Assembly (NCBI GenBank): GCA_016190485.1
Contig: JACPQN010000134.1
Location: 1-52,465 of the forward strand
Origin: Chloroflexota bacterium
GTDB lineage: Bacteria > Chloroflexota > Dehalococcoidia > SHYD01
Reading direction: 5' to 3'
DNA: 52,465 nucleotides
In this document: positions 13,521-37,793 of the stretch, piece by piece
How positions within the stretch are numbered: position 1 is the stretch's first letter
Layout of the letters: each line of letters starts with the position of its first letter
The notes under the pieces: model-generated
What the model was told of the DNA's origin: nothing
The model's database searches: none
The model's input: the letters and a program-made list of their open reading frames with translations, nothing else
Made by a program: the position numbers and the translations under genes

Positions 13521-14360
13521 TCAGCGCGCGACTCCTGGCGGCACCACGTCGATCCAGAGCTGGAGCTGCCGGAAGGGCGCGGGATCCCCTTCTCTGAACA
13601 GCAAGAACCTGACCTCCTGTTCTTTCCCCGTCTCTTTGAGGCTGAAGGTGATGGGAGATTCCCAGGTCTCCCGTGAGCCCACTTCCAGCGGCCCGGCGGT
13701 GGCCAGCGTCGCCGTTCTTGACGCGACCCGAAGGGTAAAGACGGCGGCGCGGGGCTCCCTGTTGGCGATGCCCACCACTACGGTGAGGGGATCGCCGGGC
13801 GCTGCGAGGCGGGGATAGCCCTCGGCGACCTTCTCGGCGCTCAGGACGTAGAACTCCGTAAGGGCCGGCTCCGCCGACAGGGTCAAGGCCAATCCCGCGC
13901 CGCTCAGCAGCCCTCCTGCCAGGAGCACCGCCAGCGCCAGCTTGGTCGCGGGGCGCGCCTCCCGCCAGCGGGCCACCCGCGGCAGGAGCGCCGGCAATTC
14001 GTCCGCCGGCACACCACGGCGGCGCCAGGCCGCTGCCCCGCAGCAAAGCGCAGTCCAGACGGTGAGCGCCCCTACGAGCGAGTTGTAGGTCAGGCCGAGG
14101 CGGCTGTAGTTGACCAGAAGGGACAGGACCGTCACAGCCGCCAGGGACGTGCCCAGGCTCAATGCCATGCGGTCGGCGTCGTCCAGGTCGCTGGAGCGAG
14201 GGAAGAGGGCGAGGCACAGGCTATGGCCGGGGAAGAGGAGCACGGCCAGCATACCCAGGGGCAGCCGCAGCGCAAAAGGCCCTTCCAGCAACGCCAGCAG
14301 CGCCGCGCAGAGGCTGGCTGCAAAGACCAGGAAGAGCTCGCTCCTCAGGAGGTGGGGCAT
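13521..14360 (-). CDS. DUF1616-like membrane protein
   Basis: LLFPGHSLCLALFPRSSDLDDADRMALSLGTSLA followed by an extracytoplasmic beta-domain; start assigned to MPHLLRSE. Confidence 0.8.
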   Translation of the reverse strand: MPHLLRSELFLVFAASLCAALLALLEGPFALRLPLGMLAVLLFPGHSLCLALFPRSSDLDDADRMALSLGTSLAAVTVLSLLVNYSRLGLTYNSLVGALTVWTALCCGAAAWRRRGVPADELPALLPRVARWREARPATKLALAVLLAGGLLSGAGLALTLSAEPALTEFYVLSAEKVAEGYPRLAAPGDPLTVVVGIANREPRAAVFTLRVASRTATLATAGPLEVGSRETWESPITFSLKETGKEQEVRFLLFREGDPAPFRQLQLWIDVVPPGVAR

Positions 14361-14415
14361 GGTGGGTTCCTGGCTCCATACTACCGCGCCCGCGGCTGCT
14401 GCGGCCAGCCTCTGC

Positions 14416-15573
14416 CTACTGGGGGAGCAGCACGCTGCGATACACCGCCACCGTCTCGCGGGCGGTCCGCTGCCAGGTGAACTGGCGGGCCCTGGCGAGG
14501 CCGCCTGCTCGCATCCCTGCACGAAGGTCGGGGTCGGTGAGCACGTGAGCCATGGCCGCCGCCATGTCCTGCACGCTGGCCGGGTCGACCAAGAGGGCGG
14601 CGTCGCCCGCCACCTCCGGCAGCGAGCTGGCGCTGGAGCAGACCACCGGCGTCCCGCAGGCCATGGCCTCCAGCACCGGCAGCCCAAACCCCTCGTAGAG
14701 GGAGGGAAAGACGAAGAGACTTGCCGCGCTGTACAATGCCGGCAACTCCTCCTCCGGCACGTAACCCAGCAGACGCACCGCGTCTCCCAATCCTAAGCGG
14801 CGCACCACGTCGCCCAAGTCCTCGTGCGCCCAGAGGGAAGGCCCGGCGATGGCCAGCCAGTACGCCGGGAGCTGGTGGTGCAACCGGGCGAAGGCTTCCA
14901 GCAACCGGGGCAGGTTCTTGCGGGCCTGCTGCGCCCCCAGGCTCAGGATGAAGGGGCCGTCGCACCCGTAGCGGCTGGCGACCTGCTGGGCCACAGCCTG
15001 TGGGACGGGCGCGAACCGCTCCGAGACGCCATCGGGCGCCACGTGGATTCGCCCCGCGGTGGCTGGCAAGAAGCGCAGCAGGTCCGCCCTGGCATGCTGG
15101 CTAACGGTAATGACGGCGTCCACGTGGCCCAGGGTGGCCGGCACATAGCTGCGATGGAGGAAGTTATTCAGCCAGGGGTAGCCCTCCGGGTGGCGAAAGG
15201 CGATGGCATCGTGGATGGTGACGACGCGCTTGAAACCGCCTGCCCAGCGCCCCAGCAGGAAGGGGCTCACGCCGGAGGGGTCGTGCACCAGGTCGAGCTG
15301 GAGCCGGCGGGCGGCCAGGGCGATCATGGGGCTGCCCAGGGCCATGAGGCCCGGCAGCATGCCACAGCCCGGCAGGAACCAGCAGGGCTCGCCTGCGTCA
15401 TGGAAGGGGCCGCGGCGGTAGGTGGTGAGGTAGACTATCTGGCACTCCGCCTGGTTCTGGAGGGCCCAGCCCAGCTCCAGCGCCACCCGTCCCACGCCGG
15501 AGAGGGGCCGGTCCAGGGCGTAGGCCAGCAGGCCCACCCGGGCCGGCCGGTCGCGGAAGGGGACGGGGCTCAT
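14416..15573 (-). CDS. Glycosyltransferase family 4
   Basis: [43 protein letters not shown]. Confidence 0.93.
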
Positions 15574-28512: not shown

Positions 28513-29358
28513 TCAGGACGCTCCTCCTTCGGCAGGCCCTTCGACGTTGCTCAGGACAGGCTCAGGACAGCGCCCTTTTCGGGCCAGGATCAGGGTGCAG
28601 CGGGAAGGTCCCTTCCTGGAGGCGGGCGCCAGCGCCGCGCGATACCCAGCCTCGCACCGGTCCGCCTGGCCGGGCTCGCCGAGGGCGAGGGCCAGCCGTG
28701 CCCGTGCCGCCCAGAGAAGGGCGCTGAGGCTACCCAGCTTGATCTGCTGTAGCGAGGTGTACCCGGCGGCCACCAGCTCCCGGCCCAGCGTTGCCGCCGC
28801 CGGGGGGGAGCCGAAGGGGTGTCTACCGAGCAGTGGGGTCAGCAGCCGCCCGAGGAGGCCTGGCGTCACTATCGCCAAGACGCCGCCGTCGGTCATGGCT
28901 GCATGGATGGCTGCCAACCGTTCTCGCCAGGTCTCCCGGAGGGGCGTCGTCCATAGGACGAGGGGGTAGACGCCGGGAAGAGGAGCGGTTCCGGCCAGGG
29001 GGAGCTGCGCCACGGACGCGGCTGAGCCTGAGAGCGGGCCGTGGGCCAGCCCTTCGGCTCCGCTCAGGACAAGCCCTTCGGCTCCGCTCAGGACAAGCCC
29101 TTCGGCTCCGCTCAGGACAAGCAGGCCGGCTACTGCCGCCGCGGTACCGCTATCTTCGGGCCAGAGCGCGGTGGAGGCGCCGGCCCGCAGCAGCCCCTCG
29201 TAGGCACAGGTGGGAGTCGAGGCCAGCAGGAGCAGCGGCTCCTCCGGGCTGCGCGCCGCGTACAGATGGGCACAGGCCAGGTCCAAGGCCAGACGATACT
29301 CCAAAGACACGCCTTGGGGGAAAACCGCTGTGGGCGTCCAGGGGGCTGCCGTGCTCAT
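28513..29358 (-). CDS. Methyltransferase-like protein containing a translated tandem DNA repeat
   Basis: ORF in operon orientation; weak SAM-MTase C-terminal pattern; (LVLSGAEG)x3 insertion. Confidence 0.55.
   Translation of the reverse strand: MSTAAPWTPTAVFPQGVSLEYRLALDLACAHLYAARSPEEPLLLLASTPTCAYEGLLRAGASTALWPEDSGTAAAVAGLLVLSGAEGLVLSGAEGLVLSGAEGLAHGPLSGSAASVAQLPLAGTAPLPGVYPLVLWTTPLRETWRERLAAIHAAMTDGGVLAIVTPGLLGRLLTPLLGRHPFGSPPAAATLGRELVAAGYTSLQQIKLGSLSALLWAARARLALALGEPGQADRCEAGYRAALAPASRKGPSRCTLILARKGRCPEPVLSNVEGPAEGGAS
29048..29119. repeat. Three exact tandem copies of a 24-bp REP-like unit
   Basis: AGCCCTTCGGCTCCGCTCAGGACA x3. Confidence 0.97.
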
Positions 29359-30594: not shown

Positions 30595-31695
30595 TTACCA
30601 GTGGACAGCCCAGCGTACCACGCGGTGCCAGGTCTCGAACAGCGGGTTCACCATAGTCTTGGCGAGCCTGGCCAAGGGATGCTGCAGCTCCTCCAGGAGG
30701 AGTTGACCGTCGCAGCCCGCCAGCAGCGCCGCGTCGGAGGCCCGACGGGAGGCCTGGGTGTGCCGCCTTGCCGCGAGAATGTCGGGGAGGTGAGCGAGGA
30801 CCCACCCGTAGGTCTGGAGCTTGCCCCAGAAGGCCCGGGGGCCGCGCAGCAGACAGTAGCCCAGCACCAGCAGCTCCACGGCCAGGAGCGCGGGCGCCAG
30901 CAGCGCCAGGGTGCGCCACTGGTAGAGCTTCAGGAGCATTGCCGGGCGGTTGCGCTCCAGGAGCTGGAGCTTCTCCGGTGTGAAGCGTGGCTGGAAGTCG
31001 TGGAGCACCACCGACCGGGGCACGCACAGGCTGCGGTAGCCCGCCAGCGCAGCCCGCAGGGAGAGGTCGGTATCCTCCAGGTAGAGGAAAAACGAAGGGT
31101 CGAAGCCTCGCAGCCGGTGAAAAAGCTCTCTCCGTGTCAGGAAGGCGGCCCCCGACACCGCGGGCACGCTCTCGACCAGGGTCCACGCTTCAGCGGGATC
31201 GTTGTAACCCCGGCAGGGGGTGATGCCCGTGTAGTGGGCCGCGTTGCCGCAGGTGTTGACCCTGGCGGGGTTGTGGCGCAGCAGGATCTTGGGTGTCACG
31301 AGGCCGGCCGCGGGGTTCGCGTCAAGGGCCGCTACCAGCGGCTCCAGCCATCCCGGAGTAAAGACCAGGTCCTGGTTGGCCACGGCCAGGAACTCCCGGT
31401 GCGCTGCCTGCAAGCCCGCGTTGGCCGCCGCACCGTAGCCGGTGTTCTGGCCCTGCTGGAGCAGGCGGACTGCGGGAAACTCCCTCCGCACCAGGTCGGG
31501 CGTACCGTCGGTGGAGGCGTTGTCAACCACCACCACTTCCAGCCCATCGCCGCTGCTCTCCAGCAGGGAGCGCAGGCAGTCCCGGATGTAGCCCGCGCCG
31601 TTGTAGGTCACCACCGCCACCGTGACCCGCTGGGCCGCGGCGACGTGAGGAGACGTCGTGGCGTGGGACCTGGGAGCGATGGCGCTAATGGTCAC
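30595..31695 (-). CDS. Glycosyltransferase family 2
   Basis: VTVAVVTYNGAGYIRDCLRSLL, VVVVDNASTDGT and FDPSFFLYLEDTDLSLRAALAGY motifs. Confidence 0.94.
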   Translation of the reverse strand: MTISAIAPRSHATTSPHVAAAQRVTVAVVTYNGAGYIRDCLRSLLESSGDGLEVVVVDNASTDGTPDLVRREFPAVRLLQQGQNTGYGAAANAGLQAAHREFLAVANQDLVFTPGWLEPLVAALDANPAAGLVTPKILLRHNPARVNTCGNAAHYTGITPCRGYNDPAEAWTLVESVPAVSGAAFLTRRELFHRLRGFDPSFFLYLEDTDLSLRAALAGYRSLCVPRSVVLHDFQPRFTPEKLQLLERNRPAMLLKLYQWRTLALLAPALLAVELLVLGYCLLRGPRAFWGKLQTYGWVLAHLPDILAARRHTQASRRASDAALLAGCDGQLLLEELQHPLARLAKTMVNPLFETWHRVVRWAVHW

Positions 31696-32905
31696 GATGA
31701 CCTCCTAGAGGTCGCTCCTCCAGGGAGAGCATGCGCCGCTCCAGGTCCAGGAAGGTGCTCCGGAGGACATGGAGGAGAATGCCCGTGAAGAGGGTGATCA
31801 GGCCCACCGAGACGCTCATGATGGTGATCAGGGCGTAGCCTACCGCCAGCTCGCTGGTGCGCTGGTAGATGTCGGTGACCAGGGCGCCCAGGAGCAGGCC
31901 CGCCAGGAAGAGGGCTGCTCCGGGCACGCCGAAGAAGAGGAGCGGGCGGTGCCGGCCCACCAACTGGAGGACGCCGTTGAGGACGTGCAACCCCTGGCGC
32001 AGGACGTTCCGCTTGGGGGGATCGGGGTAGAGGGCGGTGATGGGCATCTCGACGATCTGCAGCCCGAAGTCCCTGGCGGCGAACTGCATCTCCGACTCCA
32101 CGCTCAGCCCCTTGCTGCCGAAGACCAGCGCGTCGATGGCCTTCCTGGAGAAGGCCCGGAAGCCGCTCTGGGAGTCGGTGACGGCCGTGCCTGAGCCGGC
32201 GTTGGTGGCCAGGGTGATGGCCTGCTGCCCGAAGCGCCGCATGCCGGGGATAGCCCCGTCGGAACTCGCGAGGAAGCGGGAGCCGATGACGATATCCGCC
32301 TGGCCCGAGAGGATGGGGCCCAGCAGGGAGTGCAGCTCCTCCGGGCGGTGCTGGCCGTCGCCGTCCAGCAGCACCAGGACATCCGCCTCGGCGGTGCGGG
32401 CGAAGCGAAACGCGGTGTTCAGGGCCTCTGCCTTGCCCTGGTTCACCTCGTGCTGGAGGACGGTGGCGCCTGCCGCGCGGGCGATCTCCGCCGTGCGGTC
32501 CTGGGAGCCGTCGTCCACTACCACCACGGGCAGGCCCAGGAGGCGGGTGGCCAGCACCACGCTGCCGATGAAACGCTCCTCGTTGTAGGCAGGGATGGCC
32601 ACGAACGTCTTGGCCGCGACGGCGCCGGGCGCCGGCTCCACGGGCGCCAGGGCGGGAGCGCCGGGCCTTCGGGTCCGCTGGCCGGTCTCCGGTGGTTTCT
32701 GAGGGGATGCGTCTTCTGGCATGGTAGCCTCCTCGCCGCCGCCCTGGGCCAGCGCCCAGAGGTGTCCAGCCTGGGCGGAGGTTCTGGCGGTTGGCCTTAA
32801 GCGCAGTGTCCAGCGCCCTTCGGCAGGCTCAGGACGGCGCCCTTCGGCAGGCCCGTCGAGGGCCTCAGGACGCGGCTCAGGACGAGGGGCGGCGGCGCTG
32901 GTCAT
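31685..32905 (-). CDS. Glycosyltransferase family 2, polyprenol-phosphate type, two C-terminal TM segments
   Basis: FVAIPAYNEERFIGSVVLATR, VVVVDDGSQDRTAEIARAAGATVLQHEVNQGKAEALNTAF; REP-derived N-terminal tail. Confidence 0.92.
   Translation of the reverse strand: MTSAAAPRPEPRPEALDGPAEGRRPEPAEGRWTLRLRPTARTSAQAGHLWALAQGGGEEATMPEDASPQKPPETGQRTRRPGAPALAPVEPAPGAVAAKTFVAIPAYNEERFIGSVVLATRLLGLPVVVVDDGSQDRTAEIARAAGATVLQHEVNQGKAEALNTAFRFARTAEADVLVLLDGDGQHRPEELHSLLGPILSGQADIVIGSRFLASSDGAIPGMRRFGQQAITLATNAGSGTAVTDSQSGFRAFSRKAIDALVFGSKGLSVESEMQFAARDFGLQIVEMPITALYPDPPKRNVLRQGLHVLNGVLQLVGRHRPLLFFGVPGAALFLAGLLLGALVTDIYQRTSELAVGYALITIMSVSVGLITLFTGILLHVLRSTFLDLERRMLSLEERPLGGHRDH
32811..32884. repeat. REP-like repeat cluster in the 5' coding end
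   Basis: CGCCCTTCGGCAGGCTCAGGACGGCGCCCTTCGGCAGGCCCGTCGAGGGCCTCAGGACG. Confidence 0.85.
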
Positions 32906-32908
32906 GGC

Positions 32909-33757
32909 CTAGAACCTCAGTACGATTACAGTGTAGCAGATGCCCAGGAAAATCAGCCCCAAAATGACCACCAGCTCCCGGAACTGCCGGTTCAGCCGGC
33001 CCAAGAGCGAGTTGGGCATCAGGCGGCTCAGCGGGCCGGTCATGTCCTGGAAGACCACCAGCACCAGGAGGGTCAGGATCAGCAGGAAGCCCGCGTTCAT
33101 GCCCTCGGCCGAGACGAAATGCTCCTTGTAGTAGGCGACAGCAGAGATGGACCCCATCATCGAAGTGGAGAAGGTCGCGAAAGAGACGAAGCTGGACCAC
33201 ACCTGGGGTGGGTAAGGTGGCAGCGACAGGGTCCGCTCCCAGGACTCCCGTTCCGTGGTGACCCTGGCCACGAAGTTGAGCTGCCGCCCAGCCGCGAGGT
33301 CCACCTTGTGGACGTACTTGTAGATCCGGCTGCCCTGAGACGGCAGCGTGCTGGCGCCACTTTGCAGCATCGTGTTGCCCAGGAACAGCTCGTGGCGGAA
33401 GGTCTCCTCCTGGTCTCGAGGGTTGGTCACCTCCAGGGCCACCACCACGGGCTGGCCGTCCTTGGGCACCTCCGGTACCACCGTCAGGCCCAGCGGCCCC
33501 GACGCGGGCCGGGAGGAGAGCCACAGCACTCCCCAGAGGAGGATGATGGACCAGAGAACGGCCAGCTTGAGCCAGGGGTCTCGATGGCCCTGCCCTTCGA
33601 GAGCCTCAGGGCGGCGCCCTTCGGCAGGCCCTTCGTGAGCCTCAGGACGCGGCTCAGGGCGGCGCCCTTCGACAGGCCTGCCTGTCCGGCGGCCAGGCTC
33701 AGGACAGCGGGTTGCAGGCGTCGTCTCAGCGCGGTCCTTCGGTGACAGGGTGGTCAC
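32909..33757 (-). CDS. DUF1616-like extracytoplasmic/TM protein of unknown function
   Basis: N-terminal TM, beta-type domain (VVVALEVTNPRDQEETFRHELFLG...), C-terminal TM segments; REP-derived N-terminus. Confidence 0.65.
   Translation of the reverse strand: MTTLSPKDRAETTPATRCPEPGRRTGRPVEGRRPEPRPEAHEGPAEGRRPEALEGQGHRDPWLKLAVLWSIILLWGVLWLSSRPASGPLGLTVVPEVPKDGQPVVVALEVTNPRDQEETFRHELFLGNTMLQSGASTLPSQGSRIYKYVHKVDLAAGRQLNFVARVTTERESWERTLSLPPYPPQVWSSFVSFATFSTSMMGSISAVAYYKEHFVSAEGMNAGFLLILTLLVLVVFQDMTGPLSRLMPNSLLGRLNRQFRELVVILGLIFLGICYTVIVLRF
33590..33712. repeat. REP-like repeat cluster in the 5' coding end
   Basis: Several diverged CCCTTCGrCAGGC...CTCAGGAC units. Confidence 0.85.
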
Positions 33758-34734
33758 GGGCGCTCACTCCTCGCCGACGCCAGGCGTGGCCTGGCGATGT
33801 TGTTACTATCGGCAGCGGTCACGGAGCCTCCAATCCAGAGATAGAGGCCCACGAAGGCCAGGTACCACAGGGGAAAGAGGACGTAGGCCAGGTACTCGTG
33901 GGTGAACCAGAGGCTCTCGGCGCCGCCGTGATAGCCGGCCACCATGAGGGCCGTGATCCGCAGCACGTTCTGGAGCCAGGTGCCGGCCACGCCCGCCAGC
34001 AGCAGGCTGGCCGAGGGGCCCAGGGGCAGCGGCCGCTCGTAGGCCATCAGCCCGAAGAGTCCCAGGAAGAGGGCCATAGTGGTGGGGCCGGCGCAGTCCG
34101 TGCTCACCGTCGCCTGGAAGGGCGCGCCTGCGGCGGTGGTCAGGGTCAGGTCCATGCCCGCGGCGCCAACAGGATACCCCAGGAGCTGACTGAGCCAGAC
34201 CACGGGATAGAGCACCGTCCGGGCATAGGGCTCGGCGACCCACTGGGTCACCACACCGGGATAGAGCACCACCAGGACGTTCACGGCCAGCACCAGCACC
34301 ACCACCGGAGCTGCCCGGCCAAAGAGGGCCACGAAGAGACCGCCCCAGCCAGCCACCAGGGCTGCCTGGGCCGGCAGCAACGTCGCGCTGGCCAGGAGCG
34401 AACCGCCCACCAGGATGGCCCCCGGGCTGGTGGGGGCTTCCATCAGTCGCCAGGTCTGGGAGCGCCGCCGCCACAGCACCAGCCCGCCCAGGGCCAGCAC
34501 CATCCAGGGGGCAAGCCGCTCCTGGAGCAGCGCTTCGGGATTGGCCAGCGGCGCCGTCAGCGGCGCTCCCCTGAGGGCCAATTGCGCCAGCGCCCAGTAC
34601 GCAGCCAGCGCAGCCAGCAGCGCTATCCTCGTCTGGCGCTCGTCAAGCCACCAGAGCAACGCCTTGCCCTGGTAACCGCTCATCGCCTGCTCCGCCATGC
34701 TCATCGTCTCTAGCCTATCCTGTCGCGAAGCCAC
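33754..34734 (-). CDS. Exosortase/archaeosortase family protein
   Basis: Multi-TM with conserved Cys/Arg/His context: STDCAGPTTMALFLGLFGL ... NVLRITALMVAGYHGG ... FTHEYLAYVLFPLWYLAF. Confidence 0.85.
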   Translation of the reverse strand: MASRQDRLETMSMAEQAMSGYQGKALLWWLDERQTRIALLAALAAYWALAQLALRGAPLTAPLANPEALLQERLAPWMVLALGGLVLWRRRSQTWRLMEAPTSPGAILVGGSLLASATLLPAQAALVAGWGGLFVALFGRAAPVVVLVLAVNVLVVLYPGVVTQWVAEPYARTVLYPVVWLSQLLGYPVGAAGMDLTLTTAAGAPFQATVSTDCAGPTTMALFLGLFGLMAYERPLPLGPSASLLLAGVAGTWLQNVLRITALMVAGYHGGAESLWFTHEYLAYVLFPLWYLAFVGLYLWIGGSVTAADSNNIARPRLASARSERP

Positions 34735-34755
34735 GTCACTCTGGTCCTAGTCCCG

Positions 34756-35646
34756 CTACCGCAGCAGCAAGCCCGCTGGCACGCCCAGGAGGAAGGGCCA
34801 GGTGCTCACCAGCAGGGTGTTGTTCAGTCCATGCCAGAAGAGGGGCCCGGCCAGGCTCCCGGTCTTCCAGCGCATGTAGCCCAGCAGGGCGCCGGCCATG
34901 AAGGTGAACCCCAGCTCCGGCACGGATCGCCAGCTCATGTGCATCACACCAAAGAGGGCGGCGGTCAGCAGCAGCCCTTGCCACGCGCCCAGGGCCTGGG
35001 TCAGGTCCTGCTGCAGGATGCCGCGAAAGAGCAACTCCTCCGCCACCGCCACAAAGAGGAACATATAGAGCGCGTCCCGCAGCAGCAGGCCCGTACTGAA
35101 GCTGGGGAGCTGCGGGCTGGGCAGCAGGATGATGTACTCCACCAGGGAGGTGGGAACCCCCAGGGCCAGGCCCAGGGCCATGTAGCGCCCCAGTCCGGGT
35201 CGCACCAGACCCAGCTCCCGCAAGCGGGGCAGGCTGTAGCCCCGCCGGTAGAGGTGCCAGAAGACCAGCCCCAGGATCACGGAGTAGACGCCGGGCAGCA
35301 GGTAGGCCTGGTTCACGATGAACCAGGGGAGGCTGGCCGTCAGCAGGATGTAGGTGGGCGCCAGCATCAGGGAGCTGGCGCTGCGGCTGATGGCGTCGCT
35401 CAGGGGCACGATGGTGGTCAGCACGTAGGTGGCGATGACCAGGGCCAGGCAGAGCAGGATCCCGTAGCCCACGTCCTGGTAGGCAAAGATGTACTCCGCT
35501 CCGGCGATGGCCAGCACTAGCCCGTAGGGCAGGAGCCTCTCGTGCCGGGCCAGGGCAACGGGCCAGGCTGTGGCGCCCCCTTCGGCCATGCTCAGGGCAT
35601 GCTTCGAGAGCCTCAGGATGGCACTCTGGCTCCAGGTGGCGATCAT
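34756..35646 (-). CDS. CPBP family intramembrane metalloprotease
   Basis: EELLFRGILQQDL, ALFGVMHMS and HGLNNTLL motifs; REP-derived N-terminus. Confidence 0.88.
   Translation of the reverse strand: MIATWSQSAILRLSKHALSMAEGGATAWPVALARHERLLPYGLVLAIAGAEYIFAYQDVGYGILLCLALVIATYVLTTIVPLSDAISRSASSLMLAPTYILLTASLPWFIVNQAYLLPGVYSVILGLVFWHLYRRGYSLPRLRELGLVRPGLGRYMALGLALGVPTSLVEYIILLPSPQLPSFSTGLLLRDALYMFLFVAVAEELLFRGILQQDLTQALGAWQGLLLTAALFGVMHMSWRSVPELGFTFMAGALLGYMRWKTGSLAGPLFWHGLNNTLLVSTWPFLLGVPAGLLLR
35578..35626. repeat. REP-like repeat
   Basis: CCCTTCGGCCATGCTCAGGGCATGCTTCGAGAGCCTCAGGATGGC inside the 5' end of the CPBP ORF. Confidence 0.75.
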
Positions 35647-36041
35647 TGCGCCCTCCCCTTCAGGTGATAGGTGGTCTCCTCCAGGGGCGTCAGGTTGCGC
35701 GCCTCAAAGACCTGCACCCGCACCGCGCCTTCGCTCAGCTCCGATGGCGCGATCCGCTGGGTGTAGGAGTACCTTCTTCCCCGGGGCACGATGGTCTCGT
35801 CCCCCCTGACGACGCCATCCACGGAGACCTGGACGGTGTATCCCTTGTACTCTTCTTCGTGGTTGGCCAGGACGATGCTCAGCCTCCAGCCGTCCCCCGC
35901 CGGCGTCAGGGCAATGTCCTCCACCGGCCTGGGGGCAGGGGACTCGGTCCGGGGCGCCGGCGCTGGCGGGACCAGGGTGGCGACCACCAGCAGGCCCAGC
36001 ACCAGGAAGGAGAAGACGGACAGCGCCGTCACCTTTTTCAT
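35643..36041 (-). CDS. Small secreted/anchored protein, DUF1616-C-terminal-like
   Basis: N-terminal signal/TM then a beta-type domain; between CPBP and CTERM-substrate genes. Confidence 0.65.
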   Translation of the reverse strand: MKKVTALSVFSFLVLGLLVVATLVPPAPAPRTESPAPRPVEDIALTPAGDGWRLSIVLANHEEEYKGYTVQVSVDGVVRGDETIVPRGRRYSYTQRIAPSELSEGAVRVQVFEARNLTPLEETTYHLKGRAQ

Positions 36042-37237
36042 GACGCTACCCCCTGGGTCGCCAAGGGCGATGTCCTGAGCCTGTCGAAGGGCCGGCGGGT
36101 GGACCAGGTGTAGATGGCGGCGGCCAGGGCCATGACGACGGCCGTGGCCAGCAGGCTGGGCAGCTCCGGCACCAGGGCGCTGGCGTTCACCGTGAAGGTG
36201 TCGTCGGCCAGGGGCTTGTTGACGGTTTCCGAGATGGAGGCGTAGGTGGTGGCCGCCGAACCGGAGGGGTCGAAGACCACCGCGTGCCAGGTGCCCGCGG
36301 CCAGGGTGCTCCCGGCCACCAACCGGCAGGAGCTATCGAGCGTGCCGCTCACGGCGGCCTGGTTGTCGGTGCAGGCCTTGAAGCCGGTGGAGTCGTAGTA
36401 GGCGATGACGTAGGTGCCCCCCAGTTTGAAGCCCGTGCCCCGCATGTAGACGGCCTCCTGGTTGGCGGCGGTGAGGCTGTCGTTCTGCGCCGTGCGCCCG
36501 GAGTCGCTGTAGGAGTCCCACACCGCGGTGAAGGTGGCCGAGAGAGAGGGCTTGCTGGACACTGCCTCGTCGGTGTTGAAAGTGCTGACGGTGGACTGGG
36601 GGTTGGCCTCGGTGCCGTCCTTGATGAGCCAGCCGAAGTTGGAGGAGTTGGTGGCCACGAAGCTGGACACGTCGGTGGTGACGGTCCAAGAGAGGGTACT
36701 GGGGGTCGCCGTGGTAGTGGCGGTGCCCGTGGCGGTGGCGTTAAAGTCGCCGCCTGCGGTGGTCCAGGGACTGCTCCAGGTCGCGGTACCTTCTGCCCAG
36801 CTCGTGGTGACCTTGTGGGCGCCCAGGGTCCTGCCGGTCACGGTAGCGGTCTGGGTGAGGGAGAGGGTCCCCACGGAGACGGTGGCGGTGTCTGGCACCG
36901 CTAAGAGGTCGAACCTGGCCAGGGAGCGCCCGCGCTTGTTGGTGCCGCCTTTGACCACGCTCATGGTGGTCGCGGTGCCGTAGTTGGTGGTCTGGTTGGC
37001 GTCGTCGATCCAGGTATCGTCGCTGGCGGTGAAGGTGCGGGTGACGCTGGTGGCGCCGCCGGCTCGGGCCGGCGTGCTCGGAGCAGCGCCGGGCCACAGG
37101 CCCAGCGCCAGGTTCAGCGCCAGGCTCAGCTCCACCGCCCAGAAGAGCGACCTGACCCAGCGAGCCTGCCGTTCTCGTCGGGGGCCGCTAGCCCCCTCTG
37201 TCGCCCTTGTTCCGCTCGTCATCACTCGCATCAGCAT
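36038..37237 (-). CDS. Secreted DNRLRE-like (CBM96-like) protein with C-terminal sorting signal
   Basis: N-terminal TM/signal; FTASDDTWIDDANQTTNYGTATTMSVVKGGTNKRGRSLARFDLLAVP; C-terminus VPELPSLLATAVVMALAAAIYTWSTRR. Confidence 0.82.
   Translation of the reverse strand: MLMRVMTSGTRATEGASGPRRERQARWVRSLFWAVELSLALNLALGLWPGAAPSTPARAGGATSVTRTFTASDDTWIDDANQTTNYGTATTMSVVKGGTNKRGRSLARFDLLAVPDTATVSVGTLSLTQTATVTGRTLGAHKVTTSWAEGTATWSSPWTTAGGDFNATATGTATTTATPSTLSWTVTTDVSSFVATNSSNFGWLIKDGTEANPQSTVSTFNTDEAVSSKPSLSATFTAVWDSYSDSGRTAQNDSLTAANQEAVYMRGTGFKLGGTYVIAYYDSTGFKACTDNQAAVSGTLDSSCRLVAGSTLAAGTWHAVVFDPSGSAATTYASISETVNKPLADDTFTVNASALVPELPSLLATAVVMALAAAIYTWSTRRPFDRLRTSPLATQGVAS
36068..36092. repeat. REP-like repeat in the 3' coding end
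   Basis: GATGTCCTGAGCCTGTCGAAGGGCC, translated as PFDRLRTS. Confidence 0.8.
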
Positions 37238-37689: not shown

Positions 37690-37793
37690 ACTGAGCTTGC
37701 TTGCCCTGAGCTTTGTCGAAGGGTCGAAGCACGAGCCGCTCATAGTTCGACAAGCCCGTCCTGAGCCTGCCGAAGGGCTCACCATGAGCGGCT
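37690..37793. repeat. Intergenic REP-like unit with 10-bp inverted repeats
   Basis: AGCCGCTCAT (37734-37743) / ATGAGCGGCT (37784-37793) enclosing TTCGACAAGCCCGTCCTGAGCCTGCCGAAGGGCTC. Confidence 0.8.

Follow-up and report, generated by a model that had tools for sequence, protein, structure and literature searches.

Among the described sorting systems, those closest to the locus studied here are exosortase A (XrtA, EpsH) with PEP-CTERM, XrtE with VPEID-CTERM, archaeosortase C (ArtC) with PEF-CTERM, and the Myxosortase/MYXO-CTERM and MrtJ/JDVT-CTERM pairs. Genomes with PEP-CTERM typically hold many substrates, and XrtE is an exosortase joined to a protease in the VPEID-CTERM system. For ArtA to ArtE, what is stated here beyond PMC5244752 rests on NCBIfam models. 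Myxosortase cuts MYXO-CTERM proteins, dependent on a Cys in their signal motif (PMC11980579). In this work, we analysed a stretch of 52,465 nucleotides (the window, positions 1 to 52,465 of contig JACPQN010000134.1, assembly GCA_016190485.1) from an uncultured Chloroflexota bacterium of the class Dehalococcoidia, which carries a five-gene module encoding an exosortase, a CPBP intramembrane protease, a substrate with a C-terminal sorting signal (CTERM), and two partner proteins, p132 and p282. This module very probably constitutes a dedicated, self-contained exosortase/CTERM surface-anchoring system; our literature search found no paper joining exosortase and Dehalococcoidia.

The module is composed of the following features, given in transcription order:

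36038-37237, minus strand: substrate, a secreted protein with a signal-like N-terminus, a DNRLRE/CBM96 region, a conserved C-terminal domain and a CTERM (NF033679, PF24517)
36092-36172, minus strand: predicted CTERM sorting signal, VPELPS-hydrophobic helix-RR, substrate residues 356-382 (tail profiles, 19-tail alignment)
35643-36041, minus strand: p132, predicted to cross the membrane once and to bear an extracytoplasmic domain; family unnamed (cassette conservation, one hydrophobic segment)
34756-35646, minus strand: CPBP (Rce1-like) glutamic intramembrane protease (PF02517 at 72.1 bits, alignment)
33754-34734, minus strand: exosortase/archaeosortase family protein (TIGR04178, PF09721, residue conservation, structure model)
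32909-33757, minus strand: p282, with an N-terminal membrane helix, an immunoglobulin (Ig)/CARDB-like domain and two C-terminal membrane helices (24-member alignment, model)

Three of the four gene junctions overlap by 4 bases (p132 with both the substrate and CPBP genes, and p282 with the exosortase gene) and the fourth is a 21-base gap, so the five genes read as one operon. An earlier sequence-only reading of this DNA had delimited the module as 33754-37237; its genes lie at those positions on the minus strand, but p132 and p282 had been omitted, and the true extent is 32909-37237.

Family models confirm the protein at 33754-34734 as a true exosortase/archaeosortase: in a hidden Markov model check set beforehand, it exceeded the cut-offs of TIGR04178 (49.6 bits vs 23) and PF09721 (46.1 bits vs 25.7), which bears out the proposed sortase identity, and 22/22 homologues match TIGR04178. 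The Cys, Arg and His contexts picked out by the sequence-only reading proved to be the right ones, as Cys214 (DCAG, 34093-34095) and Arg259 (NVLRI, 33958-33960) are invariant among the 22 homologues and His279 (FTHEY, 33898-33900) is kept in 20 of them, with Glu in two archaeal members; these three are the predicted catalytic residues. The structure model is all-helical and confident (pLDDT 87.6), with Cys, Arg and His located within the predicted helical bundle; a fold search of this model against the PDB matched nothing at E<=0.001, and a profile search of PDB sequences with the exosortase gave no credible match. Further, the cassette exosortases tested fell far below all named subfamily cut-offs (XrtA, G, H, R, S, T, V, X, Y, CrtA, CrtC and others), the closest named model to the window enzyme being archaeosortase C (TIGR03762), at 44.6 bits vs a cut-off of 100. 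A genome-wide search identified this exosortase as the only one in the window's genome.

The substrate begins with a signal-like N-terminus, followed by a DNRLRE domain (NF033679, 71.4 bits, cut-off 34; about 36539-37042) that also matches CBM96 (PF24517, 58.9 bits). The N-terminal part is variable among homologues, with DNRLRE/CBM96 in the window and other domains elsewhere. The ~120 residues ahead of the signal (about 36173-36526) form a conserved C-terminal domain kept across phyla, for which no convincing Pfam family match was found. The tripartite tail described earlier on this DNRLRE-like protein is present in full: a single strong late hydrophobic segment (residues 359-377), preceded immediately by VPELPS and followed by RR. 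Among 19 aligned tails, Pro-Glu is invariant, a Tyr late in the helix is near-invariant, and the end is basic, giving the consensus A-[IV]-P-E-[FL]-[PS]-[TS] with a start of SAIPEFPT. Hence VPELPS, which had been taken as the motif, is indeed found in the window, but it is one member's spelling of [IV]PE[FL][PS][TS]. A leave-one-out profile excluding the window tail recovered it at E 1.1e-12, and a profile built from archaeal and Firmicutes tails only recovered it at E 6.8e-9 among 3,473 open reading frames, with all matches below 0.01 being cassette or cassette-type substrates. None of the cassette tails tested scored above the cut-off of any CTERM model. By these profile comparisons, the tail is conserved and specific to cassette-type substrates. 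A second match in the window's own genome, at C142, was rejected since it falls in the N-terminal portion of a transglutaminase-like protein and is no tail.

We then surveyed 393 genomes of the window's class, locating the exosortase type by single-sequence search. It was present in 11/393 genomes, with most of these loci carrying the same neighbours. Tail-bearing proteins occurred in 9/393 genomes, all nine with the window exosortase type, in agreement with the expectation that homologues co-occurring with the sortase keep the C-terminal signal (9/11 genomes with the type vs 0/382 without; Fisher 9.8e-17). For an exosortase of any type, the counts were 9/53 vs 0/340 (Fisher 7.9e-9). Full-length p282 was found in 8/363 class genomes, all eight having the window exosortase type, and 18/18 further p282 genomes searched carry an exosortase-like match. 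Moreover, the C-terminal domain occurs without a tail in five class genomes (G043, G147, G173, G236 and G239), none of which has any exosortase; this is a natural control. These observations bear on the idea that the genes form a conserved cluster of membrane proteins that assembles glycans or the envelope, the substrate helix being a plain, uncut anchor. The large adjoining glycosyltransferase locus and the membrane nature of p132 and p282 would suit such a cluster, and cutting of the substrate is predicted from sequence alone; however, a simple anchor would not need an invariant Pro-Glu and a late Tyr, the tail is confined to exosortase genomes, and the same domain lacks it where no exosortase exists, and we thus give a plain anchor only a very slight chance.

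Beyond the class, a contig-level scan of genomes using the window exosortase alone gave no match, and an alignment of p282 succeeded instead, recovering 28 loci from GTDB species genomes. These lie in Chloroflexota/Dehalococcoidia, Peptococcaceae, Clostridiales, Methanoperedens and relatives, Methanophagales, Argoarchaeum and Methanosarcinaceae, with one further locus in a metagenome-assembled genome (MAG) labelled Bacteroidales. At most of the 28, a CPBP gene, p132, an exosortase and a Pro-Glu tail protein adjoin p282; where contigs end early, the absent parts usually lie on separate contigs of that genome. The cassette of five families therefore recurs in Chloroflexota, in Peptococcaceae/Clostridiales and in methanotrophic or methanogenic archaea, with varying gene order; in Methanosarcinaceae and some Methanoperedens, a PEF-tailed protein lies between p282 and p132, and the CPBP gene is divergent. 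Each genome holds one or few tail proteins (one to three), counting other contigs where the cassette is split. Its conservation in other phyla and in archaea argues that the module is not a chance assembly, and with this unnamed gene set present both in Peptococcaceae and in archaea that oxidise methane, sequence comparison identifies the five-gene cassette as a real variant of exosortase/archaeosortase sorting that has yet to be catalogued. In a phylogenetic tree, the cassette enzymes group together at 94/93 (long-branched L023 excluded), and those of Peptococcaceae, Argoarchaeum/Methanophagales and Chloroflexota form a 97/90 group whose mixture of bacteria and archaea suggests transfer of the cassette between domains. 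The distribution is patchy, as the two other genomes searched from the window's own family lack the exosortase. In G404 and G405, both genomes of Clostridiales/Peptococcaceae, there is a pair of cassettes whose substrates differ (L146 5920-11053, L068 7187-10735, L147 4819-9662 and L069 8653-13803).

The archaeal members allow a direct comparison with the ArtC/PEF-CTERM system, of which the cassette could be a diverged form. Both share the exosortase fold, the Cys/Arg/His site, a Pro-Glu-Phe motif followed by a helix and a basic end, and an occurrence in Methanosarcinales relatives; furthermore, ArtC is among the two best-scoring models for most cassette members, the motif is often IPEFP, and 22/22 homologues match TIGR03762. 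They reach, however, only about 20-51 of the 100 bits required, and the cassette differs in having CPBP, p132, p282 and few substrates per genome. Two archaeal genomes, Argoarchaeum G397 and Methanoperedens G402, each carry both a true ArtC (261-275 bits) and a cassette-type enzyme (30-45 bits), and because both coexist, the cassette type is not ArtC/PEF-CTERM. In the tree, ArtC forms its own 100/100 clade apart from the cassette enzymes, and p132, p282 and CPBP are absent within about 5 kb of the ArtC loci. The tails are likewise distinct: the cassette tail profile gives only about 8 bits for two PEF-type proteins that adjoin ArtC in G397, and against TIGR03024 (PEF-CTERM, cut-off 23) the window tail has no match at E<=1 and the best cassette tail 13.0 bits. 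Model scores, coexistence, tree and tail profile, four tests in all, thus led us to reject ArtC/PEF-CTERM membership, and a diverged ArtC system is a highly improbable explanation.

With regard to the other described systems, the cassette resembles exosortase A/PEP-CTERM in its TIGR04178/PF09721 membership, in the nearby glycan genes, and in that PEP-CTERM systems can have a CPBP-type protease in their vicinity (model TIGR03008), but the window exosortase has no TIGR03109 match at E<=1, and cassette genomes hold one to three substrates. XrtE/VPEID-CTERM also pairs an exosortase with a CPBP-type protease; in the window, the two are on separate genes, the motif is VPELPS, and the XrtE model is unmatched. 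The distinct sortase/CTERM subtype that the sequence-only reading had ventured is upheld by these results, given that no named exosortase or CTERM cut-off is passed, the enzymes form their own clade, and they coexist with ArtC. Other pairings were noticed in the class. Exosortases at L123 5229-6857, L124 5086-7473 and L125 4335-8312 adjoin their own VPNLPT, IPELPT or VPEWPT tail proteins, with a CPBP gene also near in L124 and L125 and p132 and p282 absent from both; these are apparently a second unnamed type by sequence, with which the Argoarchaeum exosortase L137 groups. In family f4 of the class, genes encode small proteins (83-140 aa) ending in EVPEVP-helix (L130 1810-3807, L131 4553-4975, L132 5168-7141); in L130 and L132 the gene directly precedes an exosortase of about 560 aa, which is perhaps a third pairing.

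The CPBP protease identity was also upheld: the 34756-35646 protein scores 72.1 bits with PF02517 (cut-off 22.4), its EExxxR and HxxxN motifs are intact, and EE203-204, R208, H236, H272 and N276 are invariant among 8 homologues. As in Myxosortase/MYXO-CTERM and MrtJ/JDVT-CTERM, a CPBP-family protease here neighbours a protein whose C-terminal tag is tripartite (PMC11980579), which raises the question of whether this protease is itself the sorting enzyme, with the exosortase a bystander or acting on something else. It is the best conserved cassette enzyme (41-50% identity) and weakly matches several myxosortase models, and a myxosortase has been shown to cut MYXO-CTERM proteins (PMC11980579). 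Nevertheless, it misses all named myxosortase cut-offs widely (Mrt core 43.7 vs 100, MrtS 50.9 vs 130, MrtX 22.9 vs 180); the cassette, unlike those systems, includes an exosortase; and the Cys that myxosortase needs (PMC11980579) is absent from the motifs of all 19 aligned tails, the window tail having no Cys at all. In addition, in genome G364 (L016, 9209-11221), the exosortase, a signal-like segment, the conserved substrate domain and the tail lie in one 670-residue frame, so that the substrate is joined to the exosortase and not to CPBP. If this frame is real, the fusion would strongly indicate joint action of enzyme and substrate. We consider sorting by the CPBP protease very improbable. 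Between the fusion and p282 in G364, a frame at L016 11225-11672 resembles a Fur-family regulator by eye.

The cross-domain distribution and the two conserved partner genes were not part of the sequence-only reading. Among 24 aligned members, p282 has 19 invariant columns and a strongly conserved segment, PPYPPQVWSSFVSFASFSTS; its model places an Ig-like domain between membrane helices, a fold search returned generic Ig-like domains only, and the window p282 matches no Pfam or NCBIfam family. p132 has one hydrophobic segment and is conserved across cassettes, and 7/21 members of its family show a weak resemblance to DUF1616. Both p132 and p282 are predicted to be Ig-like membrane proteins of unnamed families.

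With the integration of family membership, residue conservation, conservation of cassette and tail, co-occurrence and the natural fusion, we propose the following scheme, for which archaeosortase A and the exosortases serve as the analogy (general knowledge; PMC5244752, PMC11980579). After export via Sec, the substrate would stay membrane-bound through its C-terminal helix, the basic end lying on the inner side. At the outer face, the exosortase would use Cys214/Arg259/His279 to cleave it close to the [IV]PE[FL]P motif and would transfer the new C-terminus to an acceptor, for which a membrane lipid or glycolipid is the likeliest candidate. Membrane-bound Ig-like p132 and p282 probably hold the substrate's conserved C-terminal domain or dock the substrate to the enzyme, and the CPBP protease probably degrades the helix once it is released, or else cuts a second time within this pathway. 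A more elaborate version, which we put forward only tentatively, is a two-protease machine in which exosortase and then CPBP act on one substrate in a complex scaffolded by p132/p282, the cassette having moved between domains; since the acceptor must suit bacterial and archaeal membranes, a glycolipid or polyprenyl carrier would be favoured over a domain-specific lipid.

Several points weigh against a dedicated sorting system. Processing of the substrate (cleavage and anchoring) is argued from homology; the exosortase-substrate fusion occurs in one MAG, G364, the sole genome of its family, where a missed stop codon is possible; and the genome carrying the window is itself a 2.89 Mb MAG of only 84% completeness. 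G027 has a weak exosortase relative and no tail or cassette was found there, and the tail match of G046 is weak and sits on another contig. Part of the co-occurrence comes by common descent, which inflates it, so that the Fisher values overstate independence. Nearly all genomes compared are MAGs, and single-genome observations (the fusion, G027, G046) may reflect assembly gaps.

The surroundings of the module include two further sets of features:

31685-32905 and 30595-31695 (30595-32905), minus strand: two family 2 glycosyltransferases (GT2) directly downstream of p282 (PF00535)
32815-33714, 35573-35618, 36063-36092, 28520-29122 and 37699-37791: copies of a repeat resembling repetitive extragenic palindromes (REP-like)

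The first glycosyltransferase gene is separated from p282 by 3 bases. With these two genes begins a glycan locus that extends to about 13521 and is terminated by a DUF1616 protein; the earlier description of sortase, protease and substrate as separate neighbours by a large glycan locus thus fits the layout. Given the weak DUF1616 resemblance of p132 members, the terminal protein (13521-14687, 148.8 bits) and p132 may both belong to a single envelope system as related components. The REP-like palindromic repeat, with core CTTCGACAGGCTCAGGA, has 6 matches in the locus vs 0.15 expected and sits in frame within coding ends. It extends the substrate tail beyond RR by PFDRLRTSP, as well as the N-termini of p282, the CPBP protease and one glycosyltransferase, and LVLSGAEG repeats in the 28513-29358 protein derive from it.

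Exosortase chemistry is poorly known, partly owing to the dozens of PEP-CTERM substrates and scattered genes. In the cassette, the enzyme is accompanied by its substrate, another protease and two partner proteins, often with one substrate per enzyme, in both bacteria and archaea; as these travel together, the questions of cut site, protease and acceptor become testable with five genes. Furthermore, the cassette supplies NCBIfam-style rules for proteins currently labelled only "exosortase/archaeosortase family protein" or hypothetical.

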